A DNA stretch of 37,639 nt from Candidatus Paraprevotella stercoravium. GTDB taxonomy: Bacteria > Bacteroidota > Bacteroidia > Bacteroidales > Bacteroidaceae. Where the stretch lies: contig CALUIU010000031.1 in NCBI GenBank assembly GCA_944320795.1, positions 1 to 37,639 of the forward strand, read 5' to 3'. A program made the position numbers and the translations under genes. Below are positions 8,739-26,684 of the stretch, piece by piece. The notes beneath the pieces are model-generated. The model did not search any database. It had not been told where the DNA came from and saw only the letters and a program-made list of their open reading frames with translations. Position 1 is the stretch's first letter, and every line of letters starts with the position of its first letter.

Positions 8739-8886
8739 AATCAGTACATTTAATATGAATTTATTTTCTAACCTGCAAAAATAGCGAAAAAAAGTGAATG
8801 TAAGGCTATGAATAATAGAAAAGTAGACATTTTCAAATAAATATCTTAATAAGGCATCATTTTCCGGCAGAATAAACAGCAAACTT

Positions 8887-8916
8887 TTTGCAGACCAATG
8901 TTTTTATCTATTTTTG
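8887..8916 (+). promoter_or_regulatory. Bacteroidetes-type promoter for the antiporter gene
   Basis: TTTG at 8887-8890 and TATTTTTG at 8909-8916 (a full TAnnTTTG match) are separated by 18 bases, close to the Bacteroides sigma-ABfr consensus. The start codon is about 48 bases further on. Confidence 0.65.
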
Positions 8917-8964
8917 TGCAGAAAACTTTATTACTAACCTCATTTATTAATTGAAAAAACCAAA

Positions 8965-10563: not shown

Positions 10564-10591
10564 TCTCGTCTTGATTTAAAGATACATACAG

Positions 10592-10643
10592 CAATCCCCT
10601 CCTTTTAAAACTGGTTTAAAACGGTTTTAAAAGGAGGGGATTG
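10592..10643. terminator. Bidirectional terminator hairpin, dispersed repeat copy 1
   Basis: Perfect 20-bp arms (10592-10611 with 10624-10643) read CAATCCCCTCCTTTTAAAAC and its complement around a 12-base loop. It lies between the converging antiporter and AAA-ATPase genes. The arm sequence and the preceding ATACATACAG recur at 26736-26798, so this is a repeat family used as a terminator. Confidence 0.75.
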
Positions 10644-10710
10644 TCATATATTAATACTCTATCATAACAGTCCTATCGGATCAATTTTTTCACTCCGAGA
10701 CCGTTGCGAA

Positions 10711-14257: not shown

Positions 14258-16450
14258 TTATTCTTTTTCAATGTAATCAGATTGAGATTCCACCAATTCA
14301 TAATAATACCCTTTCCGCTCCATCAGCGTTTCATGATTACCGACCTCCACTATTTGTCCCTGATGAAGCACCACAATCTGATCCGCGTTACGGATGGTAC
14401 TCAGACGATGCGCAATAACGACCACAGTGCGCTGTTCATAAGCCTTATTCAAAGCATCTACAATTTTCCGCTCATTAATAGTATCCAAAGAATTGGTAGC
14501 CTCATCCAAAAACAAATACTGAGGATTACGATATAAAGCCCGGGCAATTAAAAGACGCTGCTTCTGTCCCCCGCTCAAGCCACGCCCGGTTTCTCCGATC
14601 AGCGTATCGAATCCCTTGGGCATGGCATTGATCTCATCTTCTATCTGTGCTATGCGGCAACACTCATGCAACCGGTCATGATCCAGATGTTCATCATCCA
14701 GAACAATATTGTTCAAAACCGTATCGCTGAAAATCTTGCCTTCCTGCATCACAACGCCGCAAAGGTTACGCCATTGTCTCAAGTTGATGGCCGTAACATT
14801 CATCCCGCCCATCTTGATATCTCCATAAGTGGGTTTATACAGACGGACCAACAACTTCAATAGGGTAGACTTGCCACTACCGCTTCCTCCGACAATCGCT
14901 GTCACTTTGTTTTGGGGGATGCGCAGATAAATATTTTTAAGTACTAAGGGAGCATTCGGAGTATATTGAAACATGACCTTTTCCAACACCAGATCCCGGC
15001 ATTCCGGGAGCACTGTCGTGCCCCCCACGGATAAAAGTTCTTCTTCATCATCCAGCTGCCGGATCTCGTTCATACGCAGAAAACTGATCTTGGCATACTG
15101 CGCTGAGATTACAAAATTGATAAACTGGATCAATGGTCCGTTGAGCATACCGATGATAAATTGTGTAGAAATCATCACACCAAAAGTAATGTCTCCCCGA
15201 ATCACTGCCGTGGCGCAGAAAAAGACGATGGCCATATTCTTCACGCTCTCAATAAACTGCGCCCCCAGATTCTGCATATTCGTAACGGCAAGCACCCTTT
15301 TGTTCACCCGGTACAACCCGGCCTGAATCTCCTCCCATTTCCAGCGACGGTGTTTCTCGTAATTATAGATTTTGATGTCCTGAATGGCATTGACCGTTTC
15401 CACCCAATAACTCTGATCGCGGGAAATGAGTTCAAAATATTCCCAATCCAACTTTTTCCGGATACTTAGGAACACCAAGACCCACAGAACATACAGCACA
15501 GAGCCGGCCAGAAAAATCAGGAAAATAACACGGTTATAATATAACAGGATCAGGGAAAACACCAGAAACGTGAATGTAGAAAACACCAAAGCCAACGAGT
15601 TGTTCATGATAAAACTGCGGATACGCTCATGATCACGTGCCCGTTGCAGAATATCTCCCAACAGTTTGTTCTCAAAAAAGTTTACCGGAAGCTTCATCAG
15701 TTTGATCAGATAATCGGAAATCAAAGCGATATTTACCCGGGCTGTAATATGCATTAAAATCCAGTCACGCACCACATTGAAGACCATCACACTGACCAGA
15801 ATACTGATATTCCCGACCAGAACCATATTGATAAAATTCACGTCCGATGTCTGAATGCCCACATCAATCACAGCCTTGGAAATAAAGGGAAGCATCCCCT
15901 GCAAGGCCGTGACCAAAAGCATGACAGACAAGATTACGGAGAAATTTCCTTTATAAGGATAGAAATATTTCAGGATGCTGAGAAAACTGTTTTTCTGCAT
16001 TTCTTTTTCAGCTTTGGAGTCCTTGAATCCCGCTGTAGGCTCCACAGCCAACAGAACCCCCAAATGAGTTTCCCGATCACACCATCCCTTGGCAAACTCT
16101 TCGTGTGTATAGCGCACACGCCCTTTCATGGGATCGGCCACCCACACGTGTTTCTTGTCTGCCCGATAAACTACGATAAAATGATTCTCGTTCCAGAAAA
16201 GGATGGCAGGAAAGGGCACCTTATAGACCACATCATCCAGGCTGCACCGCAAGGCAAGTGTACGCAAGCCGATAGACTCGGCTCCGGTACTGATATCCAG
16301 CAGGGACACTCCCTGTTTGGTAATGCCACATTTGTCTCTAAGATATTGCAAAGAATAGTACTTACCATAAAATTTGGCAATCATCTTCAGGGAGGCGGGC
16401 CCACAATCTTGTGAGTCCATCTGATATTCAATAGGAAAACGTTTAAACAT
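14258..16450 (-). CDS. C39-peptidase-containing ABC exporter (bacteriocin/GG-leader type)
   Basis: A 730-residue PCAT transporter: it cuts a double-glycine leader and exports the cargo through the inner membrane. The N-terminal C39 peptidase has Cys16 in DSQDCGPAS, His90 in WNENHFIVVY and Asp106 in VADP, the full catalytic triad. About six membrane helices span 165-450. The ATPase domain has Walker A GGSGSGKST (521-529), signature LSGGQKQR (625-632), Walker B YLFLDEAT (645-652) and the H-loop IAHR. All key residues are intact, so it should be active. It follows the HlyD gene by six bases, and with HlyD and TolC it forms a type I-like channel. The obvious cargo is the GG-leader protein encoded four genes upstream of hlyD. 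Confidence 0.95.
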   Translation of the reverse strand: MFKRFPIEYQMDSQDCGPASLKMIAKFYGKYYSLQYLRDKCGITKQGVSLLDISTGAESIGLRTLALRCSLDDVVYKVPFPAILFWNENHFIVVYRADKKHVWVADPMKGRVRYTHEEFAKGWCDRETHLGVLLAVEPTAGFKDSKAEKEMQKNSFLSILKYFYPYKGNFSVILSVMLLVTALQGMLPFISKAVIDVGIQTSDVNFINMVLVGNISILVSVMVFNVVRDWILMHITARVNIALISDYLIKLMKLPVNFFENKLLGDILQRARDHERIRSFIMNNSLALVFSTFTFLVFSLILLYYNRVIFLIFLAGSVLYVLWVLVFLSIRKKLDWEYFELISRDQSYWVETVNAIQDIKIYNYEKHRRWKWEEIQAGLYRVNKRVLAVTNMQNLGAQFIESVKNMAIVFFCATAVIRGDITFGVMISTQFIIGMLNGPLIQFINFVISAQYAKISFLRMNEIRQLDDEEELLSVGGTTVLPECRDLVLEKVMFQYTPNAPLVLKNIYLRIPQNKVTAIVGGSGSGKSTLLKLLVRLYKPTYGDIKMGGMNVTAINLRQWRNLCGVVMQEGKIFSDTVLNNIVLDDEHLDHDRLHECCRIAQIEDEINAMPKGFDTLIGETGRGLSGGQKQRLLIARALYRNPQYLFLDEATNSLDTINERKIVDALNKAYEQRTVVVIAHRLSTIRNADQIVVLHQGQIVEVGNHETLMERKGYYYELVESQSDYIEKE

Positions 16451-16456
16451 AAGCGG

Positions 16457-17773
16457 TTATTTCTCGGTTTTTGATTTAAGGTTGTCAAACAGACGCTGGA
16501 TCAACCTTTTCGGTTTGGTAATGATTTCTATAGTTCCCCTGCTTTCCGGATTCAGTCTGAGCCGTTGTCCGAAATTGGTTTTCGCTCCATCCGGGAAATC
16601 AATCAGTGCCAGATAAACCTCTGCAGTTCCTTCCTGAGTACCAATTTTACGAGTCATCATGGATACGGAGGCCACCCGTCCGGTCAGTTTCCCGAACTCA
16701 TCATACGGATAATCCATCAGCTTTACACCAGCCTCCTGACCCGTTTTTACTTTTCCCGCACCGGAAGGCGAAAGATATACTTCACCCACAATTCTCCCTT
16801 CCTCGGGGATGATACAAAACAACTCCTGCGCCGCGTCTACAAAGGCATATTCTTTCCAAAAGCCTAAATATTCCAGCTCCCCGGAAACGGGAGAAACAAA
16901 AAGGTAATGCTCCTTCCACAAACGTACCACATTGCACAAAGCGTTGAATGCCGACTCCAGTTCAGAATACGCGGACAGCAAAGCTTCCTGTTCTTCTATA
17001 TCGGTACGAACCAGCTCCAAATTACTCCGACTGATATCCGCCTCCTTAACCAGCCTGTTACTTTCTACATTCTGACAGGCCTCCCTACGGTTCAGCCATT
17101 CATCCCGCCGGCTCTGATAAGCCTCCTTGCTGATCCCTTTCTCCTGCATCAGCAGACTGTCTTCATGCAACAGTTTTCCGACTCCATCCAACAGTTCCCG
17201 CTTTACCTCCCTTTCACGAAGCAGGCTTTCCATCAGGGCGCGGTCGGCGCGGATTTGCTCTCTCAAAGAAGAACGCATATTGTCATACAGTCCCGAATGA
17301 CGCAACAGATCCAATTTCCATTTACTCTGTGCGAAACTGTTGTAGGCGGAAGTCATATCCCCCAACAAAAGCTTACGGTTAGGAATCATAAAGGATTTAT
17401 GAATATCCACCGTATCCAGAAAACGGTCCAGCCACAGAAAGTCCGGGTAGTCTACCCCGCTCTCCATATATGCTACATAATCCCCTTTCTTCAGATTCTC
17501 CCCGTTCCGACGCACCAAACGCAAACGGCCGGAAGACTGCGCGCTCAACCGGACCGGAGCGGATTCCGAAGTAACAGTAATTTCACCAAGCACTGTATCC
17601 GGATACTTGATGACAAAACCCAATATGAACACCACACCAATCAGAATAAAAGTAATCAGTGCCGTCCACATCGCCCAACGGGTAGGCATGCGGTCTACGA
17701 TATCCCGCACTTCCTCGCTATAATTATGCTTTTGCCTATTTAAAGCATCATGTTCCTCGTTCATTTGACTCAT
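16457..17773 (-). CDS. HlyD-family periplasmic adaptor
   Basis: A 438-residue membrane-fusion protein that links the ABC exporter to the outer-membrane TolC-type duct. It has a short cytosolic N-terminus, one membrane helix at about 37-57 (WTALITFILIGVVFILGFVIKY), a first lipoyl half (VRLSAQSSGRLRLVRRNGENLKKGDYVAYME), a long Glu/Arg/Leu-rich coiled-coil hairpin (about 145-270), a second lipoyl half (YLFVSPVSGELEYLG) and a beta-barrel region. This matches adaptors paired with C39 exporters. It lies 9 bases after the GT2 gene and 6 bases before the exporter gene, so translation is probably coupled. Confidence 0.93.
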   Translation of the reverse strand: MSQMNEEHDALNRQKHNYSEEVRDIVDRMPTRWAMWTALITFILIGVVFILGFVIKYPDTVLGEITVTSESAPVRLSAQSSGRLRLVRRNGENLKKGDYVAYMESGVDYPDFLWLDRFLDTVDIHKSFMIPNRKLLLGDMTSAYNSFAQSKWKLDLLRHSGLYDNMRSSLREQIRADRALMESLLREREVKRELLDGVGKLLHEDSLLMQEKGISKEAYQSRRDEWLNRREACQNVESNRLVKEADISRSNLELVRTDIEEQEALLSAYSELESAFNALCNVVRLWKEHYLFVSPVSGELEYLGFWKEYAFVDAAQELFCIIPEEGRIVGEVYLSPSGAGKVKTGQEAGVKLMDYPYDEFGKLTGRVASVSMMTRKIGTQEGTAEVYLALIDFPDGAKTNFGQRLRLNPESRGTIEIITKPKRLIQRLFDNLKSKTEK

Positions 17774-17782
17774 AAAACCTAA

Positions 17783-18613
17783 TTATGACAGATTCTGTTT
17801 GAACAACATGTAGACATATCTATAAAGTAATTCTTCACTGAGCATATTTTTGGATTTCATCTCTTTCAATAACGCGTAGAATCGCTCCACAAGTTCCTTT
17901 TCATGAACTTGACCTACCATCCAGTTTACGAGTTCCTCTTTAACCTTTTGCCCGGAAATCCGTTGCTGAGAAGCCTTAGTCCTTGATACCTGTTCAGATG
18001 AATAACGGTAAAAAAGCAAAGACTGGGGTTCAACATAAAAAACAGCTCCATACTCTGCTGCTCTTGTCCACATTCGATAATCTTCAGCATAGATAAAATC
18101 CTTTTCATATTCCAATGCATGCCGGACCAGAAAAGAACGTTTCATCATCATCGCAGAATGACAAAATATATTCTCACCCAACAGAACTAACGACGGCCTA
18201 AGTACCAAGCCACTGTGCTTCCGGACTACCATATGATTATGCTCCTCGTTCGTAAGCAAGGTAAACCAGGAATTACAGAAATCTATCTCCGGATTTCTTT
18301 CCATTAAAGACACCTGAATCTTCAATCGGTCCGGATGCATCACATCATCCGCATCCATCCGGGCAATATATTTTCCTTGTGCCATCCTCAAGCCATCGTT
18401 TAAAGCAGAAATGAAATCATGATTCCTTTTCACATATTTTATCCGCTTATCCTTATATGAAAGAATGACTTGCTCTGTACTATCCGTAGAACCATCGTTC
18501 AGAATCAAAAGCTCAAAATCCGTATAACTCTGATTCAATACACTGTCTATCGCTTCCGCAATCCATTTTTCTCCGTTAAAAACCGGCATCAAAACACTGA
18601 CATTTACTCTCAT
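17783..18613 (-). CDS. GT2-family glycosyltransferase
   Basis: A 276-residue GT-A glycosyltransferase. Signatures are VSVLMPVFNGEKWIAEAIDSVL (5-26), ILNDGSTD (37-44), the metal-binding DADD at 87-90 and AEDYRMWTRAAEYG near 195, which supplies the catalytic Asp region. No membrane anchor is present, so it acts in the cytoplasm. It is wedged between a GT4 gene (3 bases) and the hlyD gene (9 bases), inside the export operon, so a role in decorating the exported protein or in a linked glycan is likely. The sugar is unknown. Confidence 0.92.
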   Translation of the reverse strand: MRVNVSVLMPVFNGEKWIAEAIDSVLNQSYTDFELLILNDGSTDSTEQVILSYKDKRIKYVKRNHDFISALNDGLRMAQGKYIARMDADDVMHPDRLKIQVSLMERNPEIDFCNSWFTLLTNEEHNHMVVRKHSGLVLRPSLVLLGENIFCHSAMMMKRSFLVRHALEYEKDFIYAEDYRMWTRAAEYGAVFYVEPQSLLFYRYSSEQVSRTKASQQRISGQKVKEELVNWMVGQVHEKELVERFYALLKEMKSKNMLSEELLYRYVYMLFKQNLS

Positions 18614-18616
18614 AGT

Positions 18617-19876
18617 CTACAAATTGTCATCTAATTCACAAAAAACATCCATTATATTTTTCATCATCACTTCCTCAGTATATCGGTTCTCATATTGTTT
18701 CCGCCCGTTGCGTCCCATACACAAAGTTTGCAAACGATGAGTCATCAGGTAAACAATCTGCTTTGCCATCCTTTCAATATCTGCTCCAAGCCCTTTTAAC
18801 AAAGAAAATTTTACAGGTACGAGCAAAGCATTTGTCTTATCGGTAAACAATTCCCTCAGTCCGTCAACTTCGGTTGAAACAACCGGAAGTCCGAACATCA
18901 TCATTTCTATAGCTGCATAGCTACACTGTTCCTGCAAGGAAGCAATGATTCCGGCATCACTTGTCCTATATATATCAGCCAATACCTCAAAAGGCACCAA
19001 ACCCAAAAAATCCAAATCAAGATGACTATATTTTGACTGTAAGAAGCCCCGCATTCTGTCCGTCGTCTTTCCGGCTATTTTCAGTTTGGCCCGATACCCC
19101 CAGGATTGAACCAGTTTCAAAGCTTCCAAAATAAATGGCAATCCTTTACTCGCAGACAAAGTTCCTACATAAACCAATTGAAAAAGGCTGGTATCTGACC
19201 TGTGGACAACCTCCCCCGCCTTGTCCCTCATTCCATTATAAACCACACGTATCTTTGAATCCGGTATCCGCAAAATATCGCGCAAAAATTTCCGGGCACA
19301 TTCCGTAACACAGACAATACGGTCAGATTTAAAATAAAAATCAGCCTCAGAACGTATCTGAAAAAAGCGTGATATGTCTTTCTGTTCCACTTTTCCACTA
19401 CGTTGCAGTTCATATAGCATATTAAACTTCTGCCGATTCGTATTATAATTAGCCTTCCATGGCAGACAATGAAGATGAGAAACGATGCTGCACCGTTTTC
19501 TTTTTTTCAGAAACAATGCCAGATCGATCAGATTCACAGTATTCAGATGCAAAATACATCCATCCTCCAACAAATCCTTCAAATAAGGATATACCGACAG
19601 ATTATATGCTTCGCTCCAATATCCCTGACGGATCATCTCGCTCATATTTAAAGGAAGGGGAATGCGTACTTCCACAAAATGAGGATGTTTGATCTTTTTA
19701 ACAAAAATCTGATTCTTATCCTGAACCAGATGTATATAACAGAATCTGATTTTCTCCAAAGAAGAAAGCCCGTCCAGCAGACATTGTAGAAAGCGCCCTA
19801 CGCCGGAAAAGTTACTCTCATCACTCATGACCATAACCACAATCTGCTTTCGGACAAAATGATCTTTTCTCATCAT
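18617..19876 (-). CDS. GT4-family glycosyltransferase
   Basis: A 419-residue GT-B enzyme. The donor-binding half has the pattern LVYVGTLSASKGLPFILEAL, then DAGIIASLQEQCSYAAIEMMMFGLPVVSTEVDGLRELF, with the E-x7-E related site near 325-335. The N-terminal half begins VVMVMSDESNFSGVGRFLQCLL, typical of acceptor domains. Two adjacent ATG codons serve as the start. It lies 10 bases after the LanC-like gene and 3 bases before the GT2 gene. Its protein shows only limited resemblance to the other GT4 of the cluster, so the two probably use different acceptors or donors. Confidence 0.9.
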   Translation of the reverse strand: MMRKDHFVRKQIVVMVMSDESNFSGVGRFLQCLLDGLSSLEKIRFCYIHLVQDKNQIFVKKIKHPHFVEVRIPLPLNMSEMIRQGYWSEAYNLSVYPYLKDLLEDGCILHLNTVNLIDLALFLKKRKRCSIVSHLHCLPWKANYNTNRQKFNMLYELQRSGKVEQKDISRFFQIRSEADFYFKSDRIVCVTECARKFLRDILRIPDSKIRVVYNGMRDKAGEVVHRSDTSLFQLVYVGTLSASKGLPFILEALKLVQSWGYRAKLKIAGKTTDRMRGFLQSKYSHLDLDFLGLVPFEVLADIYRTSDAGIIASLQEQCSYAAIEMMMFGLPVVSTEVDGLRELFTDKTNALLVPVKFSLLKGLGADIERMAKQIVYLMTHRLQTLCMGRNGRKQYENRYTEEVMMKNIMDVFCELDDNL

Positions 19877-19886
19877 ATCTTTTGGT

Positions 19887-20897
19887 TTAATCCATTAATA
19901 CCGGCCACAGTCTTTTGCGGACTGAAGGCTCTGAATTCATATAAATCAAAGACAGCACCAATCTGGGGATTCCATTCCGAAGACTCAGTTTTCCGGTTTT
20001 TTCCGGGACAATACGCCCTAATGTCTTCTCCACACAGTCTTTATCACCGACAAGAAGCTTTTGCCCCAATCCTTCCAGCAAGGAATCATGGCCATGGATG
20101 ACCAGAAAATGGGAGTGTTCCCTCAGACCGGACAAGAATACATCGGACATCCTTTGCTCCCACAAGATTCTGCCGGATAGGTCCGCCGGGGTTTCCATCC
20201 ACCGCTCTTCCATGCCCAAAATCTGAAACCAATATCGGGTCTCAAAATCATATTTAAACATTCCGGATCGGTAAAGATGCCCATAGTTTTTCAGGACATC
20301 CTTACGGATAGGGTAATCCTTCAAAAGGGATATAATATAAAGCAAGCAGTTCCAGACATTTGCCAGCTGATCAAGATTATAGATCCTGTCCCTTGAAAGA
20401 ATCTGCTGAAAGACCTCGTTAATCCGTTCCTGTAAAACATCCAAGTATGAGATTGCCAAAGAAATGTACTCACCATTTCCCGAACCAAGAAGGAAACGCA
20501 AGGTACGTACTTGAGAGAGGCACTTTGACAGATCCTCTTTCATGATACGCTCCAACTCCGAAACGACAAGCTCTGTCTGTGCCGCAAACAATTCATCAAA
20601 CCTTGCGTCCACCAGACGGTTCTGTATCAAATATTCCAGAACATAGCCAATTCCGGATAACCCTTTGTCAAAACTGATATTCCGGGTTTGGGTTAATAAA
20701 GCCTGCATCAACAATTCCGAAGCCAAATTCTCCAACGCATCATCCTTCAGAAAATCTGCCAGCTCAAAAAACAATAAGGAGAAGCCGCTTCTTCCCTGAT
20801 CATAACCGCTCCCGCCTAATGTGGTCGCGTTCATTTTCAGGTAATCTACCAGCCCTGCAAATACAGGACTGGCAGAATAAGAATGTTTCTGTGTCAT
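19887..20897 (-). CDS. LanC-like protein, likely lacking the zinc site
   Basis: A 336-residue helical protein. The pieces SGYDQGRSGFSLLFFELADFL (about 30-50) and DKGLSGIGYVLEYLIQN (about 77-93) resemble the Gly-rich helix starts of lanthionine cyclase (LanC) alpha/alpha toroids. LanC enzymes close thioether rings with a zinc ion held by two Cys and one His. Here the WC and CHG motifs are absent; the few Cys (in KCLSQV, WNCLLY and DKDCVEK) do not form that site. It may be a structural or substrate-binding relative. The start codon overlaps the stop of the TonB-like gene by 4 bases (ATGA), so they are translationally coupled. LanC-fold assignment is moderate. Confidence 0.6.
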   Translation of the reverse strand: MTQKHSYSASPVFAGLVDYLKMNATTLGGSGYDQGRSGFSLLFFELADFLKDDALENLASELLMQALLTQTRNISFDKGLSGIGYVLEYLIQNRLVDARFDELFAAQTELVVSELERIMKEDLSKCLSQVRTLRFLLGSGNGEYISLAISYLDVLQERINEVFQQILSRDRIYNLDQLANVWNCLLYIISLLKDYPIRKDVLKNYGHLYRSGMFKYDFETRYWFQILGMEERWMETPADLSGRILWEQRMSDVFLSGLREHSHFLVIHGHDSLLEGLGQKLLVGDKDCVEKTLGRIVPEKTGKLSLRNGIPRLVLSLIYMNSEPSVRKRLWPVLMD

Positions 20898-21658
20898 TTT
20901 AGTGTTATTGGAATAGAAAACTTACTATCCACAAAAACAAAACCGGCGGATGCTGGATGCCAACGGAACTTTTCGCCCATCGTTGTCAGTGCCTTGGTAA
21001 CCTTTTTCTCTAGTTCCGGATCCTTCGTAAAATTTCTGACGCATGTGATTTCACTCATACGTCCGTCTTTCTTTACCACAAATGAATAAAGCAATTTCCC
21101 GGAGGATTTCTCAGGCAGGAGGGTAGACAAGTAGTTTTGGAATACGTCCAGACCGTCGGATGGGCTGGCAGGTAGCTCCGGATTCACATGAACCCGCCCG
21201 GAACGGATCAGACTGTCGGTTTCAGTTTCTTTCCGTTGATAACGGTCCCATTCCGATTTGTCCATGTGCAGACGCAGCACGCAGGTGCTGGCCACCGCCT
21301 TGCCATCCTGCCATGCCGGCAAAGCCTTGGGCAGAGAGGAGAACATACGCTCTATCTCACTCTTCACTTCCGGTAAATCGGCATCCGGAACGACATCCGT
21401 TATGTCACCGTCCGCACCAATTGTGAAACGCACCTCCGCAGACAAGGGCCGATCAGAAGGATATCCTTCGGGCCACTTTAAAAAGTGAAGGCAAATCAAT
21501 TTCATATCGTCCGCGAACTCCGGTTGGTAATCATACTGCAGAGAATCCTCCACCTGTAAGGTGCAGACCTCCTTTAAAACAGAATCTTGCGCCTTTGATC
21601 TTACAGAAACAAAAATAAAAAGCAGTAAAAAAATATGATTTAATACAATCTGATTCAT
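20894..21658 (-). CDS. Secreted protein with two TonB C-terminal-like domains
   Basis: A 254-residue protein with a signal peptide (residues 1-23, ending VRSKA). Two copies of a TonB-C-like fold follow. The first, about 45-135, includes LSAEVRFTIGADGDITDVVPD and LPKALPAWQDGKAVASTCVLRLHM. The second, about 165-252, includes LLYSFVVKKDGRMSEITCVRN and a matching C-terminal strand. The proline-rich linker and membrane anchor of true TonB are missing, so energy transduction is unlikely; binding of exporter parts or cargo in the periplasm is an inference. It is separated by about 99 bases of AT-rich DNA from the GG-leader gene and overlaps the LanC-like gene. Confidence 0.75.
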   Translation of the reverse strand: MNQIVLNHIFLLLFIFVSVRSKAQDSVLKEVCTLQVEDSLQYDYQPEFADDMKLICLHFLKWPEGYPSDRPLSAEVRFTIGADGDITDVVPDADLPEVKSEIERMFSSLPKALPAWQDGKAVASTCVLRLHMDKSEWDRYQRKETETDSLIRSGRVHVNPELPASPSDGLDVFQNYLSTLLPEKSSGKLLYSFVVKKDGRMSEITCVRNFTKDPELEKKVTKALTTMGEKFRWHPASAGFVFVDSKFSIPITLK

Positions 21659-21757: not shown

Positions 21758-22663
21758 TTAATAACTAAAACCTGCATACTTAAACATTTCTAACCAATTC
21801 CATTGATATGAAGCATTAGACTCCCCAGAATTCTTCAGATAGTCACTATTACCTGTTTCCAAATATTTTTGATACATCTCCTGTCTATAAACATTGTAAA
21901 AATAGTCCACACCGCTGTTAAAAACATTTAAATCTAAAGGTTGTGATTTGTCAAAGCCATGAGTTACACTAGATGCCCAATCTACAAATTTAGAATCTGT
22001 TATCGGAACTGGTGCAGGTACATCACCAGAACAAGCCTTCATAAAGTAAGACATAAGCCCTTCTTGAAATTCTGCATTAGAATAATTAGGATTGTCACTT
22101 CCTATCGCACCTAAATCTGCCTGTTTTAGATGAATTAATTCTGCTCGCAAAGCATATAAGTCATAAGACTTTAATACAATCTGATTTGAAGCGTCATGAA
22201 ATTCTCCAGCTCTAATACAATTGGGATCTATAACAATCCCAGCACCATATTTCTCTAGCAATTGTCGCTCTTCGGTAGATAATTGACTTATCAAGGTTTC
22301 CAACTGATAATCATTACTATCCACAATACCGGAATCACCAGAAAAGCCCGAGTCTGAAGCAAAAGGATCATCTTGAAAACCAGTATCCTCATCTTCTAGA
22401 AAATCAGGTGCCAATTCTCCGTCCTTATTTTTTCCGTCAATATAAATCTCTCCGCTGATTATTGAAACAGAATCAAAAGATTTACCTAGACTTCCCCAAC
22501 CTTCAACTTGTCCTCCTTCCCACTCATTAGTAATATACATACTCAAAAACTCCTCTTCAGTAAAAGTTCCGGTTCCACCAACCATACCACGCAAATCCAT
22601 TTCACTCAATACAGGCATTTCCTTCGCCAATTCATCCAAACTTCTTTTTGTAATAGTCTTCAT
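21758..22663 (-). CDS. GG-leader secreted protein with degenerate metalloprotease-like core
   Basis: A 301-residue protein and the probable cargo of the exporter. Residues 1-30 form a double-glycine leader ending LSEMDLRGMVGG, with hydrophobic residues at -15, -12, -7 and -4 (M16, L19, L24, M27) before cleavage after G30, as in Bacteroidales GG families. Residues 31-60 carry TGTFTEEEF and GGQVEGWGSLG; 81-118 is an acidic, Asp/Ser/Gly-rich linker. The C-terminal half holds AELIHLKQ (174-181), which resembles a zinc HExxH site with the first His replaced by Ala, followed by NAEFQEGLMSYF (196-207), a possible third-ligand helix. Far longer than bacteriocin precursors, it could be a toxin, an adhesin or an inactive protease. 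Base composition is more AT-rich than its neighbours. Function unknown. Confidence 0.8.
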   Translation of the reverse strand: MKTITKRSLDELAKEMPVLSEMDLRGMVGGTGTFTEEEFLSMYITNEWEGGQVEGWGSLGKSFDSVSIISGEIYIDGKNKDGELAPDFLEDEDTGFQDDPFASDSGFSGDSGIVDSNDYQLETLISQLSTEERQLLEKYGAGIVIDPNCIRAGEFHDASNQIVLKSYDLYALRAELIHLKQADLGAIGSDNPNYSNAEFQEGLMSYFMKACSGDVPAPVPITDSKFVDWASSVTHGFDKSQPLDLNVFNSGVDYFYNVYRQEMYQKYLETGNSDYLKNSGESNASYQWNWLEMFKYAGFSY

Positions 22664-22680: not shown

Positions 22681-24165
22681 TTAATAATTATAAACAAATA
22701 ATTCACTCATATCACAATGCCTTTTAAAATCATACAGGCAAAGCGTCCTCAACTGATAATAATAGGTATATAGTGTGTAAAGTGATTCATAATACTGCTC
22801 TTGAAATGAATAGACTGAACGCCGTGAATCCAACAGTTCAGACACCGTGATGCGAGATATATCGAAACGCCGTAACATCAGTTCATAATTGGATATGGAT
22901 AGCTCATAACTCCTACGGGCCAGAGCATAACCGGACAAAGCCGTATTATATAACGAGACTTTCTCAAAGACATTCTGTTCCAGATTCTTCAGGGAGCGTT
23001 CCGCATCCAGTTCTGCCATCGCGGCTTCATTCCGTGACATACGGACCTTGTTGTGGCCTATCCCCCAGTCAAAAAGAGGAAAAGTCAGGCTGACGGATAT
23101 ATTCTGGCGATTCTCCGGATGGAGATAAGCCGCCGAAAAAGAGGAGGCATAACGATTTACTCCATAATCTATTGAAATATTCCCCTGAAGACGGTTCTCA
23201 CGCTTCGTTTGCCAGCTCTGATAACGGGCCTGAAGCACCGTATATTCCCGATTCAACATTTCAGGATTGTTTTCCATCGCATATCGGAGCACTTCGTCTG
23301 CACTAATCTTTGGGAAATCAACTGAAAGACTGTCTGAAAGAACAAGCGGAGAAGAGCAACACAAAAAACTCTGAATTGCACGTAAAGCCTCTTCATAAGA
23401 GGCACGTGTCTGGATGACCGCGTGCTCTGACTCCGCACACTCCAATTCCACCTGATTAAATTCATAATCGGTGATACGACCATGCTGTAAGGCCAGACGA
23501 GACACATTTAACAATGTATCAGAGGACAATTTCATCCGCACGGCATGTTCTTGTGACAAACGCGTCAAAAACGCATTCAGATAAAGTGTCACAGCTTGCT
23601 CCTCCAAAGCGGAGCGCTCCTGAACAAAATGACGAAAAGCCAACTCATAACCCATACGGGCCAGATCCCTGCTAAACAGATATTCTTTACGCCCTCCCCA
23701 TAAAGGCTGCGATAAGTTGATATAAAAAGGACGTGTCGTATAATTGTTCTTATTTGAAGAAAATTCATGTAAATAATCCAAGGAAGTACCGATTCGTACG
23801 GTTCCCCCTGTGATACCTAATGATTGCTGCAAAGCAACATTTAATCCCGTAGATGCTGAATAATCCTCTACGTAATTATAACTGCCATCAAAAGCATTCT
23901 GCAAACGTTGTATGGAACGGTTAAATTGGAAAGAATCCCACTGAAAAGATATTGCAGGAAGGAAACCCTTGCGGTAGTTTTCATAAGAAAGCTTGCGGTT
24001 CTCCAAATCCAAATACAATCTCTTCATTTCCGGAATCTCTGGTACAAAATGTTGCAAGACAAATTCCAGCGAAATGGTTCGCCCCACACCATCCTGACTT
24101 TTTAGCAATAAAATAGCTAAAAATAGAGGTACTAATGAAATATGTCTTGCAACATGAATCCTCAT
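22681..24165 (-). CDS. TolC-family outer-membrane efflux protein
   Basis: A 494-residue outer-membrane factor that would complete a type I-like export path with the HlyD adaptor and ABC exporter. A signal peptide (about 1-28) precedes two repeats of long amphipathic helices and outer-membrane strands. Typical pieces are FLPAISFQWDSF (strand), LNAFLTRLSQEHAVRM (helix) and, in the second half, VSLTFPLFDWGIGHNKVRMSRNEAAMAELDAE, a classic TolC/OEP signature. It is the first gene after the 33-bp operator array, with a match to the -7 promoter box about 70 bases upstream. The GG-leader gene starts 17 bases after its stop. Confidence 0.9.
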   Translation of the reverse strand: MRIHVARHISLVPLFLAILLLKSQDGVGRTISLEFVLQHFVPEIPEMKRLYLDLENRKLSYENYRKGFLPAISFQWDSFQFNRSIQRLQNAFDGSYNYVEDYSASTGLNVALQQSLGITGGTVRIGTSLDYLHEFSSNKNNYTTRPFYINLSQPLWGGRKEYLFSRDLARMGYELAFRHFVQERSALEEQAVTLYLNAFLTRLSQEHAVRMKLSSDTLLNVSRLALQHGRITDYEFNQVELECAESEHAVIQTRASYEEALRAIQSFLCCSSPLVLSDSLSVDFPKISADEVLRYAMENNPEMLNREYTVLQARYQSWQTKRENRLQGNISIDYGVNRYASSFSAAYLHPENRQNISVSLTFPLFDWGIGHNKVRMSRNEAAMAELDAERSLKNLEQNVFEKVSLYNTALSGYALARRSYELSISNYELMLRRFDISRITVSELLDSRRSVYSFQEQYYESLYTLYTYYYQLRTLCLYDFKRHCDMSELFVYNY

Positions 24166-24234: not shown

Positions 24235-24242
24235 CAAATATA
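24235..24242 (-). promoter_or_regulatory. Promoter -7 box for the tolC-to-exporter operon
   Basis: The minus strand reads TATATTTG, an exact TAnnTTTG match. The nearest upstream TTTG is only 16 bases away, shorter than usual, which fits a promoter that needs an activator. Transcription would start near 24228. The nearest palindromic site is then centred about -43, the place where class II LuxR-type activators bind. Position is by pattern only. Confidence 0.55.
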
Positions 24243-24263: not shown

Positions 24264-24378
24264 GTATACTTAAGTACACCATTAAAACTAACAATAGTAT
24301 ACTTAAGTATACCATTAAAACTAACAACAGTATACTTAAGTATACCATTAAAACTAATAACAGTATACTTAAATGTAC
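24264..24378. repeat. Four operator-like palindromes in a 33-bp tandem array
   Basis: Four 16-bp sites begin at 24264, 24297, 24330 and 24363, exactly 33 bp apart. The two middle ones are perfect palindromes GTATACTTAAGTATAC; the outer two are near matches (GTATACTTAAGTACAC and GTATACTTAAATGTAC). Spacers of 17 bp (CATTAAAACTAACAAYA type) are nearly identical. The 33-bp period is close to three helical turns, so sites lie on nearly the same DNA face. The array fills the gap between the E1-like gene and tolC. The same palindrome stands before the LuxR-type gene, so this is best read as its binding array. The site count could vary by slippage. Confidence 0.85.
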
Positions 24379-24386
24379 CATTAAGA

Positions 24387-25133
24387 TTACATGAGAGTAG
24401 ATATAAAATAAAAATCAGGAAAAAGTTTCAAAGGTTTGTTCAGGGATGCCACATAAGCGATTCTTGTACATAAAGCCGCCGCAAGCCAGGAGCCCACAGA
24501 GAGTTGAGGCGGAGTCATAGAGGTACTTGATTCAAGAAAACGCTTCAGCAACGGTGAAACTTCAATCAGAAATTCATCCGGCAAGAGCCCGAACTGAAAT
24601 ACGTAACTGGCCATTTTGGTTTCAAAGGATCTATAATCCGTAGAAATATCGCATAACTGCCTGCTTTCCGGCGTAACCACTGCAACCATACTTCCCCAGC
24701 CAAAATTATAAGGATGAAGAACCTTTATATTATACTTTACACACAATTGATCAAACACAAATGGAATTGGTGATTGAAAATCTAACGCATTTATGGCTAA
24801 ATCATGTCCTTTGATCACTTGCTCAGCATTACGTTCATGAATAAATTCATTGATATCAAGAATCTGAGCATCGGGATTAATCATCTTTAGCCGCTTTTTT
24901 AACGCCGCAGTTTTAAAATTTCCAATATCATGAAACACATAGTTCTGACGATTCAGGTTCGTCAAATCAACCGTGTCTGCATCCACTATGGTTAATTTCT
25001 CAAAACCCAAACGAAGCAGACACTCGGCTATATTACTCCCTAAACCAGAACCTGCCAACAATACATGCGTGTTTTTAATGACACTCTGTTCTTCCGAAGA
25101 AATGTAAAAAGCATTTTTAGTATAACGATCCAT
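24387..25133 (-). CDS. ThiF/HesA/MccB-type E1-like adenylyltransferase
   Basis: A 248-residue E1-fold enzyme. These proteins adenylate a C-terminal carboxylate of a small protein or peptide (ThiF, MoeB, MccB). It has AGSGLGS (27-33) for ATP, Asp51 and Asp53 in VDADTVD, the NRQ motif (61-63) and the later LAINALDF (about 112-119) with Asp118. Missing are the zinc CxxC pairs and a clear catalytic-cysteine loop, so it resembles MccB-like peptide adenylating enzymes more than sulfur-carrier E1s. No ubiquitin-like partner gene is visible. It starts 6 bases after the GNAT gene, so the two form one operon. The modified target is unknown; the GG-leader protein or a small product of the GNAT enzyme are candidates. 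Confidence 0.85.
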   Translation of the reverse strand: MDRYTKNAFYISSEEQSVIKNTHVLLAGSGLGSNIAECLLRLGFEKLTIVDADTVDLTNLNRQNYVFHDIGNFKTAALKKRLKMINPDAQILDINEFIHERNAEQVIKGHDLAINALDFQSPIPFVFDQLCVKYNIKVLHPYNFGWGSMVAVVTPESRQLCDISTDYRSFETKMASYVFQFGLLPDEFLIEVSPLLKRFLESSTSMTPPQLSVGSWLAAALCTRIAYVASLNKPLKLFPDFYFISTLM

Positions 25134-25139
25134 GTTTAT

Positions 25140-25766
25140 CTATTTTTTTATAAAAGAATAATCATATTCACTGATACATTTTAAATAATACTTCATTATA
25201 GAGTCCCGTAAAGCATAAGCAGCAATACTTTCTGATCCTAAGAAATATACCGGATCAGATAATGCCGTCAGTTTCATTCCCAAATGATTTATTGTATGAA
25301 ACAAACGGGAATCTATTTCGGCCAACATACATCCTCTTGAATCCATACATACAAAATATGATGCTATCCCCATAAGATATTTGAATATCGTGAAACAATT
25401 TCCTCTTTGTTTTTTATCAACCGCCAATCTTCCTATATGCCAATATATATAATTCTGCTTTAACAGATCGCTGTTGTTTAATACAAAATATCGTTGCATA
25501 GGAATTTCAATCTTCTGATCCCATTTCATTATGCGTATAGAAGCTATTATCTGCCTTTCCGGATTCAGTAAGACGAAAACAAAAGAATTAGAAAAATATC
25601 CAATCTCTTCCTGATAGATTTGATTTACGATTTCATGATTCACATCTAAATGATGAGACAGGTTTTGCCGAGCAATAAACAATGCCAATTCCAATAAATC
25701 ATGTGGAGATGTCAATAAACAGACATCCCAATCCTTAAAATGAGATAAATAAAAAAAAGTTTGCAC
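25140..25766 (-). CDS. GNAT-fold acyltransferase with LuxI/FeeM-like features
   Basis: A 208-residue protein. The segment QIIASIRIMKW (72-82) followed by WHIGRLAVDKKQRG (109-122), then HTINHLGMKLT (157-167) and DPVYFLGSESIAAY (171-184), mirrors the order in LuxI autoinducer synthases and FeeM-type N-acyl amino acid synthases: the Arg strand, the E/H-x-x-RxAVD core, and a late LG...P...LG...I turn. Those enzymes acylate an amino acid or S-adenosylmethionine using acyl-ACP. A small signal molecule is thus plausible but not shown. The start is GTG at 25766, since an in-frame TAA lies just upstream and no ATG is near. It shares a divergent promoter region with the LuxR-type gene. AT-rich codon use suggests transfer. 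Confidence 0.6.
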   Translation of the reverse strand: MQTFFYLSHFKDWDVCLLTSPHDLLELALFIARQNLSHHLDVNHEIVNQIYQEEIGYFSNSFVFVLLNPERQIIASIRIMKWDQKIEIPMQRYFVLNNSDLLKQNYIYWHIGRLAVDKKQRGNCFTIFKYLMGIASYFVCMDSRGCMLAEIDSRLFHTINHLGMKLTALSDPVYFLGSESIAAYALRDSIMKYYLKCISEYDYSFIKK

Positions 25767-25798
25767 ACTTATAAGATTTTATCGTCCAATAAAATTAA

Positions 25799-25827
25799 AT
25801 AAATTATTCGTAAAAAAATAAATCAAA
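25799..25827 (-). promoter_or_regulatory. Promoter for the GNAT-E1 operon
   Basis: On the minus strand, TTTG (complement of 25824-25827) lies 17 bases before TAATTTAT (complement of 25799-25806), one base off TAnnTTTG. The shared palindrome is centred about 58 bases upstream of the expected start point. Confidence 0.5.
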
Positions 25828-25840
25828 AAAGAATATCAAG

Positions 25841-25860
25841 AGGTATACTTAAGTATACCT
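25841..25860. promoter_or_regulatory. 20-bp palindromic operator between the GNAT and LuxR-type genes
   Basis: AGGTATACTTAAGTATACCT is a perfect 20-bp palindrome. Its 16-bp core at 25843-25858 is identical to the two best sites of the array before tolC. It lies upstream of both divergent promoters, centred about -58 for the GNAT operon and about -70 for the regulator gene. I infer it is the binding site of the PAS-LuxR protein, giving self-control and shared control. Confidence 0.8.
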
Positions 25861-25886
25861 TATAAAAATATTACTAATAATAACAC

Positions 25887-25915
25887 TTGACAAAGTAAAA
25901 AAAGCATTATCTTAG
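25887..25915 (+). promoter_or_regulatory. Promoter for the LuxR-type regulator gene
   Basis: TTG at 25887-25889 and TATCTTAG at 25908-25915 (one base off TAnnTTTG) are 18 bases apart. The start codon lies about 20 bases after the -7 box. Confidence 0.5.
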
Positions 25916-25934
25916 CGGAAATTAAGATTGAGAT

Positions 25935-26684
25935 ATGAATATATATGAATTGTTTAACGACCGGAATAAGGTGACTGGTACAATTAATTATACCGAAGAG
26001 CAGGCTACCGAACTGATACATCTCATTCAACTGATCCTATCCAATGAATACGAGAGTTTCTATATCATAGATTATAGCCGGAAAGAATTTGTCTATGTCC
26101 ATGACAATCCATTATTCCTATGCGGACATTCTGCCCAAGAGGTACAATGTATGGGATATGACTTCTACGCCCAATACGTACACCCTGAGGATATTTCCTT
26201 TTTGTTCGAAGTCAACGACATAGGTTTCCGAAAATATCAGGAATTATCAAAAACGGATCGCGAAAAAGACGGTTACATATCTTATGATTTCCGTATCAAA
26301 AACGGGGCCATCTATTTACCCGTACACCACACTCTGATTCCGCTGGTCAAGAACAAGCGGCAGGAAATAGTCTGGGCACTGTGTAAAGTCTCCCTAACGG
26401 AACAAAGGTGTCCGGGAATCATTATGGCCAAAGTAGGCGAAAAAGAGATAACTTGGAATCGGAAAACAAGATGTTGGGAGGAATTTCAAAGACCTCAATT
26501 GAGCGAGAAGGAAAAGGAAATTGTCAGATTATCTATTCAGGGATTCACAGAAAAGGAAATGTCTGACAAGTTACTGCTGTCCGAGAGTGCTATAAAAAAG
26601 AGGAAAAAAATACTGTTTCAGAAATTGCGCGTCAAGAACATGTCCGAAGCTATTATCTACTGCACCAACAAAAGACTTTTTTAA
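25935..26684 (+). CDS. PAS-domain LuxR-type transcription regulator
   Basis: A 249-residue cytoplasmic regulator. Residues about 35-155 look like a PAS domain: FYIIDYSRKEFVYVHDNP, then the FYAQYVHPEDI helix and a strand region ending VWALCKVSL. Residues about 185-245 form a LuxR-type helix-turn-helix: LSEKEKEIVRLSIQGFTEKEMSDKLLLSESAIKKRKKILFQKL. No receiver, membrane or autoinducer-binding domain is seen, so the signal is presumably sensed through the PAS pocket. It stands divergent from the GNAT and E1 genes, with a perfect palindrome in between and four more before tolC. It is therefore the likely master regulator of the cluster. Ligand unknown. Confidence 0.88.
   Translation: MNIYELFNDRNKVTGTINYTEEQATELIHLIQLILSNEYESFYIIDYSRKEFVYVHDNPLFLCGHSAQEVQCMGYDFYAQYVHPEDISFLFEVNDIGFRKYQELSKTDREKDGYISYDFRIKNGAIYLPVHHTLIPLVKNKRQEIVWALCKVSLTEQRCPGIIMAKVGEKEITWNRKTRCWEEFQRPQLSEKEKEIVRLSIQGFTEKEMSDKLLLSESAIKKRKKILFQKLRVKNMSEAIIYCTNKRLF

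Follow-up and report, generated by a model that had tools for sequence, protein, structure and literature searches.

In circuits of the LuxI/LuxR type, the lux box is positioned at about -42, the glutamate of the E-x-x-R motif of LuxI is catalytic, and no E1 enzyme is needed. To our knowledge, autoinduction by small molecules is poorly established in the Bacteroidota, a dominant phylum of the gut. Here we describe a three-gene cassette of this phylum, encoding a GNAT enzyme, a ThiF/E1-like adenylating enzyme and a LuxR-type regulator. A literature search returned no description of it; the survey of the E1-like superfamily by Burroughs, Iyer and Aravind, which reportedly treats associations of E1 and acyltransferase proteins, lay outside that search. 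The cassette resembles a LuxI/LuxR circuit in that synthase and regulator genes are adjacent and divergent, in that a box lies before the synthase gene at about -42 and recurs at downstream targets, and in that free-standing regulators occur in other genomes. It differs in that the synthase is not LuxI by family model and is accompanied by E1 in 43 of 46 loci, that the regulator is weakly PAS-like with no autoinducer-binding domain seen, and that the promoter elements are of the Bacteroidetes type. The initial annotation of a LuxI/LuxR-like pair stands as far as profile placement, linkage and box geometry in relatives are concerned, while a true LuxI/LuxR pair is not supported.

Similar enzyme pairs are described for OxzAB of Pseudoalteromonas and for TyzABC and TrzAS of mycobacteria. 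According to excerpts of the two reports, an AHL-synthase-like N-acyltransferase and a ThiF-type cyclase are encoded together in these systems and give rise to N-acyl oxazolones (PMC10404671, PMC12856293). The cassette shares this pairing and, unlike these systems, adds a LuxR-type regulator with conserved boxes and is coupled to peptide or protein export. Known oxazolone pathways also include a flavin-dependent oxidase of the nitroreductase superfamily, whereas no flavin oxidase appears among the 25 of 41 families listed for 69 downstream proteins of 18 cassette loci. A frequent target operon of the cassette is of the kind known from the RiPP clusters of Bacteroidales with double-glycine (GG) leaders and C39 exporters and from the class I lanthipeptides of Chryseobacterium. 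The main text of a study mining such Bacteroidales clusters mentions no LuxR, ThiF or GNAT (PMC10352776), and the word 'regulator' is absent from a paper on lanthipeptide production in Chryseobacterium (PMC9993889).

Results

The window analysed here, a stretch of 37,639 nucleotides from Candidatus Paraprevotella stercoravium, carries the three genes side by side. By open reading frame, the GNAT gene (25140..25766, minus strand) starts with GTG and encodes 208 residues, and the E1 gene (24387..25133, minus strand; 248 residues) starts 6 bp beyond its stop. The regulator gene (25935..26684, plus strand; 249 residues) encodes a C-terminal GerE helix-turn-helix and a possible PAS-like domain at the N-terminus, and is separated from the divergent GNAT gene by 168 bp. 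This spacer, a divergent promoter region, contains a perfect 20-bp palindrome, AGGTATACTTAAGTATACCT (25841..25860), a lux-box-like candidate site for the regulator. The back-to-back arrangement of GNAT and regulator, the palindrome between them and the joining of an E1-like gene to the synthase gene, all noted in the initial annotation, are hence confirmed.

A scan of genome contigs with the window protein alone yielded no relative (17 pattern stretches, none confirmed), and a scan with an alignment yielded 46 related Bacteroidota loci. All three genes are found in 41 of these and E1 in 43, and GNAT and regulator are divergent within 600 bp in 38, so that the linkage for which a survey of relatives had been proposed is conserved. 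The carriers include cultured species, among them members of Chryseobacterium and Prevotella. For alignment, sequences more than 90% identical position by position were collapsed (39 to 25 for GNAT, 42 to 21 for the regulator and 40 to 20 for E1), frames shorter than 90% of the expected length were omitted, and four GNAT frames were dropped for which no start codon gave the expected length. Across 19 distinct loci, the protein distance matrices of GNAT, E1 and regulator correlate at 0.85-0.88, values which shared ancestry alone could also give. Among 151 genomes of the family, E1 is present in seven (E up to 1e-40) and GNAT in five (E up to 1e-15), all five being among the seven; each of the seven has a regulator within about 1 kb of E1 on the same contig. 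At the level of the order, 5 of 393 genomes gave matches, several of them partial and the window's own genome included, and a search of plasmid records with the GNAT of one relative (L050) found nothing at E up to 1e-5. The window cassette itself is divergent, its GNAT being only 28-35% identical to the others, which counts against reading it as a circuit.

We then compared the GNAT enzyme with named families. The Pfam model FeeM matches the window protein at E=5.2e-4 and 20.3 bits, below the cut-off of 27, and no NCBIfam model matches it. At E up to 1, 24 of 26 family members are recognised by FeeM (PF21926; best 9.8e-7) and 17 of 26 by TIGR03694; these families of FeeM and of PEP-CTERM/exosortase-associated acyltransferases are the best-matching named ones. 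By hhalign, with comparison profiles that are shallow, the family scores 85% (E 6e-6) against eight FeeM proteins (chosen by hand from 21 loci, two with moved ends), 55% against two LuxI proteins of the same phylum (chosen by hand from six) and 0.1% against an acetyltransferase of the same genome, a control consisting of a single sequence named by eye. The profile comparison thus does not place the GNAT, as far as sequence can tell, with an ordinary acetyltransferase. A third set, six proteins over the FeeM or Autoind_synth cut-offs (four Autoind_synth and two FeeM matches, chosen by hand), scored only 2.6%, and the placement is therefore not uniform. In a PDB profile search with the GNAT alignment, no solved LuxI, FeeM or other acyltransferase was found; the sole two matches, Scone-E and Scone-R, look like chance.

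With a threshold of E up to 1, Autoind_synth (PF00765) recognises 4 of 26 family members (best 0.006) and leaves the window GNAT unmatched; a scan of the genome at E up to 0.01 gave no match, its controls being silent too. Where the LuxI motif E-x-x-R falls, the window protein reads WHIGRLAVD and the LuxI of another locus (L121) WELSRLAID. The glutamate is hence replaced by histidine, and this residue, H110, is invariant in 26 GNAT sequences. Genes well over the LuxI cut-off do exist in the phylum (L121, L126) and differ in look from the GNAT family. Besides falling below the FeeM cut-off, the window GNAT differs from FeeM and the PEP-CTERM-associated acyltransferases in motifs of its own, W-H-[IV]-G-R and an N-terminal ENYxHH, and in its association with E1 and a LuxR-type regulator. 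The FeeM/LuxI superfamily is nonetheless the nearest by profile, and we predict from this that the GNAT is an N-acyl amino acid synthase. Of the LuxI/FeeM-type synthase initially annotated, the superfamily is retained, whereas the missing Autoind_synth match and the exchange of glutamate for histidine argue against LuxI proper.

The E1 enzyme is recognised by Pfam ThiF (PF00899; 2.5e-33, 115.7 bits, cut-off 28.1), and its family profile matches the solved chains 9egb_A and 9egc_A over nearly their full length (E about 2e-118). The family has already been structurally characterised (9egb, 9egc, 9egd); no paper naming these structures was found in the literature search. Adenylation by MoeB employs an arginine finger, an arginine, a lysine and an aspartate. 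R62, K74 and D118 are invariant in 21 E1 sequences, and residue 6 presumably corresponds to the position of the arginine finger. The window enzyme has K6 and A8 in place of the R6 and R8 of nearly all relatives, which counts against the circuit.

The GerE domain is found in the window regulator (3.9e-10) and in 22 of 22 family members, and 3clo is the best solved relative. The PAS domain named in the initial annotation gives a weak Pfam signal (PAS_3 at E = 0.04 for the window protein, and in 2 of 22 members), while its statement that an autoinducer-binding family is not seen agrees with our matches for the window regulator and the family members, which include no such domain. A paralogue of the regulator lies on another contig of the genome, C6, next to an exact copy of the palindrome (C6:61887). 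The regulator is present in 26 of the 151 family genomes and GNAT in 5; related regulators with neither GNAT nor E1 are common there, which again counts against a circuit.

Beyond what the initial annotation noted, the palindrome recurs upstream of the TolC gene as an array of four copies with a 33-bp period (24264..24378), beginning at 24264, 24297, 24330 and 24363 with 1, 0, 0 and 2 mismatches, respectively. A candidate box of the regulator is TACACTTTTGTGTA. When up to 3 mismatches are allowed, the 16-bp core of the palindrome has seven matches in the window, where 0.12 are expected and 0 of 100 shuffles reached seven; two of them, at 25978 and 33538, have 3 mismatches each and could be fortuitous. 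With up to 2 mismatches, the core occurs at nine places of the whole genome, five of them inside the window, and a backwards control pattern at one. A further exact palindrome copy outside the window, besides that on C6, is C5:28023. We do not favour a plasmid iteron as explanation of the 33-bp array, since its palindrome is found in the GNAT-regulator spacer too and, in relatives, stands at a fixed distance from the promoter.

The relatives carry boxes of the form TACAC-W4-GTGTA and the window the TATAC type (jointly TAYAC-W4-GTRTA), a difference that counts against the circuit reading. Boxes stand before the synthase gene, before E1 and before the target operon in the relatives, 55-116 times denser than elsewhere. 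Counting regions of 80 bp and longer, at least one box is present in 38/40 regions upstream of GNAT (5.4 per kb), 24/40 upstream of E1 (5.2 per kb) and 29/40 after GNAT (10.9 per kb), compared with 0.094 per kb in the remainder. Since the consensus was taken from the GNAT-regulator spacers, the enrichment there is partly circular, and the E1 and post-GNAT regions serve as the independent test. Measurements for all three regions are available from 33 loci, and in 16 of these every region is boxed; the absence of boxes from 16/40 E1 regions and 11/40 post-GNAT regions counts against the circuit.

The boxes also keep a fixed distance to a promoter element. Of 63 distinct regions that carry a box, the window included, 48 have TAnnTTTG at a distance of 33-35 nt from the centre of the box, where about 0.12 are expected: 12/16 E1 regions (expected 0.05), 16/24 GNAT regions (0.03) and 20/23 target regions (0.04). 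For the window, the region upstream of TolC was used as the post-GNAT region. Its array fits this geometry, the proximal box lying 33 nt from TATATTTG (24235..24242, minus strand), which by sequence and distance is the candidate -7 element of the TolC operon and whose motif we take to be the Bacteroidetes-type -7 element. In front of the window GNAT gene, by contrast, no TAnnTTTG stands at this spacing (33-35 nt) to the box, a point against the circuit. By analogy with the lux box, the distance corresponds to an activator position, and the promoter-fixed geometry in relatives bears out the quorum-sensing-like layout with a palindrome that had been proposed.

The predicted target operon, on the minus strand throughout, starts with a TolC-type outer membrane channel (22681..24165; OEP 2e-28). 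It is followed by a candidate exported cargo of 301 residues (21758..22663), which has a double-glycine-type leader (...LRGMVGGTG, found by eye) and which neither Pfam nor NCBIfam matches at E up to 1, and by a TonB-C-like protein (20894..21658; TonB_C 2.4e-4, below cut-off). A longer protein on C6 (L003:12191-13753; TonB_C 2.6e-7), judged by eye to be related to the latter, is divergent from the regulator paralogue. Further downstream are a weakly LanC-like protein (19887..20897; LANC_like 0.0015, below cut-off), a glycosyltransferase related to TIGR04157 (glyco_rSAM_CFB; 18617..19876; 210 bits, cut-off 400), an HlyD-type adaptor (16457..17773; HlyD_3 7.6e-7) and an ABC exporter with a C39 peptidase (14258..16450; Peptidase_C39 4.3e-34). 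Across loci, the downstream genes vary, comprising LanB/LanC, radical-SAM clusters and lipoproteins, and the DNA of relatives is similar in the cassette and similar once more in the exporter, with no such likeness in between. Of 35 GNAT places with sufficient sequence downstream, 11 gave candidates in a motif search for small frames with GG leaders; such peptides are therefore not a universal target.

Discussion

A recurring three-gene cassette with conserved sites before secretion genes looks, therefore, like an unrecognised chemical-signalling circuit, and we consider it probable that the GNAT, E1 and LuxR-type genes form one autoinducing signalling cassette. In such a circuit, the GNAT would N-acylate an amino acid or a similar amine, and the E1 would adenylate the free carboxylate of the N-acyl product, which would then be cyclised to an acyl-oxazolone or amidated. 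The PAS-like domain of the regulator may bind this product, upon which the regulator would occupy the palindromes, some 42 bp ahead of the start of transcription, and thereby activate the genes for synthase and E1 together with the neighbouring secretion operon, in the window that of TolC, the GG-leader protein, glycosyltransferases, HlyD and C39-ABC. The scheme would further include signal release and dependence on cell density. We infer that the GNAT/E1 product is a signal, perhaps an N-acyl amino acid derivative and perhaps, as in the Oxz, Tyz and Trz systems, an oxazolone cyclised by E1.

An intermediate in tailoring would be an equally good reading of the activated E1 product. In a first rival explanation, GNAT and E1 would be tailoring enzymes of a secreted peptide, and the LuxR-type protein an ordinary cluster-specific activator responding to another cue. 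The cassette does often adjoin C39-exporter and peptide-modifying genes (Peptidase_C39 in 11 and Radical_SAM in 10 of the 69 downstream proteins), enzymes of the ThiF type modify RiPPs, and, in the excerpted part of one report, a GNAT domain is described as conferring immunity within a microcin C system (PMC12250964). We nevertheless regard this explanation as unlikely: the cassette is conserved as DNA, whereas the stretch separating it from the exporter has been exchanged, no RiPP enzyme was seen by eye in the operons of lipoproteins or secreted proteins that follow the cassette at four loci (L029, L035, L038, L068), and GNAT, E1 and cargo each have their own boxed upstream region in the 16 of 33 loci given above.

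Alternatively, GNAT and E1 may make an end product, a lipid or metabolite (N-acyl amino acid or oxazolone) that has its own function, the regulator merely co-regulating the secretion genes. A close precedent in chemistry is given by the Oxz, Tyz and Trz products, for which a signalling role is not established in the excerpts of their reports (PMC10404671, PMC12856293). The divergent regulator and the boxes at activator distance before the synthase gene amount to an autoinduction layout, synthase and regulator stay paired while the cargo varies, and the distance matrices of GNAT, E1 and regulator correlate, within the reservation about ancestry made above; these features render an end product quite improbable. 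A true acyl-homoserine-lactone system acquired by Bacteroidota, to which the few Autoind_synth matches and the 55% hhalign score against the LuxI proteins of the phylum might point, is extremely improbable given a window GNAT outside Autoind_synth, the histidine in place of the E-x-x-R glutamate, a regulator with no autoinducer-binding domain among its matches, the near-constant E1 and genuine LuxI genes of the phylum that look different.

Returning to the signalling cassette, a more far-reaching and doubtful version would be a quorum sensing of Bacteroidota across the phylum, with an acyl-oxazolone (azlactone) autoinducer, a FeeM-type synthase with an E1 cyclase, a PAS-type LuxR sensor and interchangeable secretion cargo. 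If this were true, the acyl-oxazolone would be the five-membered-ring counterpart of the acyl-homoserine lactones. The cassette offers concrete candidates for synthase, activating enzyme, receptor and DNA site, and predicts which peptide and protein secretion clusters it switches on. It could thereby help to explain clusters that are silent in the laboratory, in a proposed circuit that spans gut and environmental bacteria.

Organization of the cassette and its palindromes in the window

The window corresponds to contig C31 of a 2.8-Mb genome. As the initial annotation had it, the genes for the GNAT protein, a predicted N-acyl amino acid synthase (25140–25766, minus strand), and for the LuxR-type regulator (25935–26684, plus strand) lie back-to-back on opposite strands, with a perfect 20-bp palindrome (25841–25860) between them. 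The E1-like gene described as joined to the synthase gene (24387–25133) indeed follows GNAT after a gap of 6 bp. A transposase-like reading frame, IS66-like by eye, occupies the contig end (37097–37639).

With up to 3 mismatches allowed, the palindrome GTATACTTAAGTATAC occurs seven times in the window, compared to 0.12 expected, and none of 100 shuffles reached this number; two of the seven, each with 3 mismatches, may be due to chance. Four copies form an array with a 33-bp period (24264, 24297, 24330 and 24363) upstream of a gene row encoding, in order, TolC, a 301-aa protein whose leader is of the GG type, one TonB-like and one LanC-like protein, glycosyltransferases, HlyD, an ABC exporter with a C39 peptidase and, after it, another glycosyltransferase; two of the glycosyltransferases were named by eye. 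Genome-wide, nine places match at up to 2 mismatches versus one for a backwards control pattern. An exact copy at C5:28023 (L014:10024) lies 125 bp before the gene of a 454-aa secreted-looking protein, for which no Pfam match was found at E ≤0.01. Another at C6:61887 precedes a second regulator copy (G000:C6:61985–62731; L003:13986–14735), which is 78% identical in protein and divergent from a TonB_C protein; neither GNAT nor E1 was seen beside it. Chance probably explains two 2-mismatch copies, of which one lies between two reading frames on C3 and the other within a gene on C61 that resembles that of a ribosomal protein.

Conservation of the gene linkage in relatives

Of 151 family genomes, five, the window's own included, contain a GNAT relative, seven an E1 relative (E ≤1e-40) and 26 a regulator relative (E ≤1e-30), and all five GNAT genomes are contained in the set of seven. 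In each of the seven, the regulator lies within ~1 kb of E1 on the same contig; it directly adjoins E1 in six, whereas GNAT intervenes in the window. An E1 genome outside the five (G002) carries a GNAT fragment with a stop adjoining E1 and the regulator, and in the seventh (G071) GNAT was not found. Many family genomes possess regulators without GNAT or E1.

A non-exhaustive alignment scan of a contig collection with short peptide patterns gave 85 pattern stretches, 47 of them confirmed, and yielded 46 loci, every one titled as Bacteroidota (Bacteroides, Prevotella and allies, Palleniella, Muribaculaceae, Dysgonamonadaceae, Chryseobacterium, Marinoscillum and others). By tblastn, GNAT was detected in all 46, the regulator and E1 in 43 each and all three in 41. 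The linkage of GNAT and regulator proposed by the initial annotation is conserved in these relatives, as both genes are divergent within 600 bp in 38 of the 46 loci, related loci not being independent of one another. Eight loci are exceptions: L030 is a short contig, no regulator was detected in L032 and L042, the two genes are over 1 kb apart in L062 and L065, L036 and L066 are rearranged, and in L068 GNAT is the sole cassette gene. L039 and L040, 20-kb loci of one MAG that are ~99% alike, each harbor the full cassette. G069, a genome listed in the same genus, has cassette proteins that match those of CALULQ010000032.1 (uncultured Paraprevotella) at 100% identity. Across 19 distinct loci, the protein distance matrices of GNAT, E1 and the regulator show correlations of 0.85–0.88, which could be obtained from common descent alone.

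The usual gene order in relatives is E1(+) regulator(−) GNAT(+), from which the window differs in that E1 follows GNAT. Its GNAT is 28–35% identical to other members and its E1 carries K6 and A8, where nearly all relatives have arginine at both positions. This divergent member may differ in chemistry.

Classification of the cassette proteins

The likeness of GNAT to LuxI and FeeM claimed from the sequence was borne out in part. FeeM matches 24 of 26 GNAT members at E ≤1 (best 9.8e-7), the exosortase-associated acyltransferase TIGR03694 matches 17 (best 7.3e-6), Acetyltransf_1 five (best 0.05) and Autoind_synth four (best 0.006). In profile–profile comparisons, which rest on alignments of little depth (Neff ≤3) and so give a ranking rather than proof, the GNAT family scored 85% (E 6e-6) with a set of eight FeeM proteins, 55% (E 1.2e-4) with two same-phylum LuxI proteins, 2.6% with a third set of six proteins that clear the cut-off of Autoind_synth or FeeM, and 0.1% with a single acetyltransferase, ordinary in appearance, from the same genome; between the FeeM set and the LuxI pair the score was 61%. 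The FeeM set and LuxI pair support the claim and the third set does not; its poor score bears on the LuxI/FeeM placement, which is an approximate one. Autoind_synth at E ≤1e-5 matches five of 395 genomes, and in G883:C44, of the same phylum, two LuxI-type genes lie next to each other (L121 and L126; E 6e-26 and 7e-23), with a LuxR-type gene nearby.

E1 is a clear ThiF protein. Its family profile covers almost the whole length of 9egb_A and 9egc_A (E ~2e-118); hence, a structure of this family has already been solved by others, and someone has worked on the family. All 22 regulator members contain GerE and two contain PAS_3, with 3clo as the best solved relative.

Position of the boxes relative to promoters

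Palindromes of one form, TACAC-WWWW-GTGTA, are present in the GNAT–regulator spacers of many relatives, compared to TATAC-TTAA-GTATA in the window. Under a fixed mismatch rule, such boxes occur in 38 of 40 regions upstream of GNAT (300 bp), 24 of 40 upstream of E1 (120 bp) and 29 of 40 after GNAT (120 bp), at densities of 5.4, 5.2 and 10.9 per kb, respectively, versus 0.094 per kb in the remainder of these loci. They are often paired at 38–39 bp (28 bp in Chryseobacterium). A TAnnTTTG element, which we take to be the Bacteroidetes −7 motif, follows the proximal box, its TTTG being 33–35 nt from the box centre and in nearly all cases 34. This spacing is found in 12 of 16 distinct regions before E1, 16 of 24 before GNAT and 20 of 23 before the target operon, while shuffling predicts 0.05, 0.03 and 0.04. 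At this distance, the box would lie ~42 bp upstream of the point where transcription starts, as the lux box does for activation. On the regulator side, where the distance is 41–44 nt in 26 of 41 loci, it is less clear that the regulator gene is activated directly. Within the window, the rule holds for the TolC array (33 nt), and no TAnnTTTG was found at 33–35 nt from the box in the GNAT promoter. A box also precedes the regulator in three of four inspected loci from genomes without detected GNAT or E1. Judged from sequence, the genes very probably constitute a regulatory cassette whose boxes are bound by the regulator.

A putative autoinduction loop with interchangeable cargo

In Pseudoalteromonas and mycobacteria, an acyltransferase and a ThiF cyclase are reported to produce N-acyl oxazolones (PMC10404671, PMC12856293). 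Gene sets related to these are also found with N-acyl tyrosines; there, the ThiF role is described as still open (PMC12479983). The cassette appears to share the acyltransferase–ThiF pairing with the oxazolone systems and differs in its predicted control by a regulator and in the boxes before the synthase itself. Given this pairing and these boxes, the simplest reading is an autoinduction loop, in which the product of GNAT and E1, an N-acyl amino acid derivative, would act as signal. We consider it somewhat probable that this product is the signal of the regulator, and regard an oxazolone as a possible but rather unlikely form of it. No report of the cassette was found in the literature searched, which omits most subscription papers and bioRxiv preprints, so that this negative result is weak evidence of novelty.

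The Prevotella loci L050 and L060 are alike in DNA over the cassette (7617–10708, 90.7%) and the exporter (18341–20591, 85.5%), with no DNA match at E ≤1e-20 in between. The same pattern is seen for L050 with L044 and L026 with L031, and the conserved block stops shortly past the boxes following GNAT. L050, L051 and L052, titled Prevotella ihumii, Hoylesella timonensis and Prevotella histicola, share ~18.8 kb from a common start at ~1827, with an identity of 99.98% between L050 and L051 and of 98.5% between L050 and L052, as if by recent transfer or mis-assignment. The downstream genes include those for LanB and two LanC proteins (Chryseobacterium L043), for glycosyltransferases and for radical SAM enzymes, of which one has a SPASM domain; in other loci with downstream lipoproteins or secreted proteins, no RiPP enzyme was seen by eye. 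Thiol_cytolysin (PF01289) matches two of 69 downstream proteins from 18 loci among L026–L070 (best 2.8e-15); one type of cargo therefore bears a likeness to pore-forming proteins. Since the cassette is kept while the cargo varies, this comparison argues that GNAT and E1 would serve the circuit rather than a single peptide chemistry.
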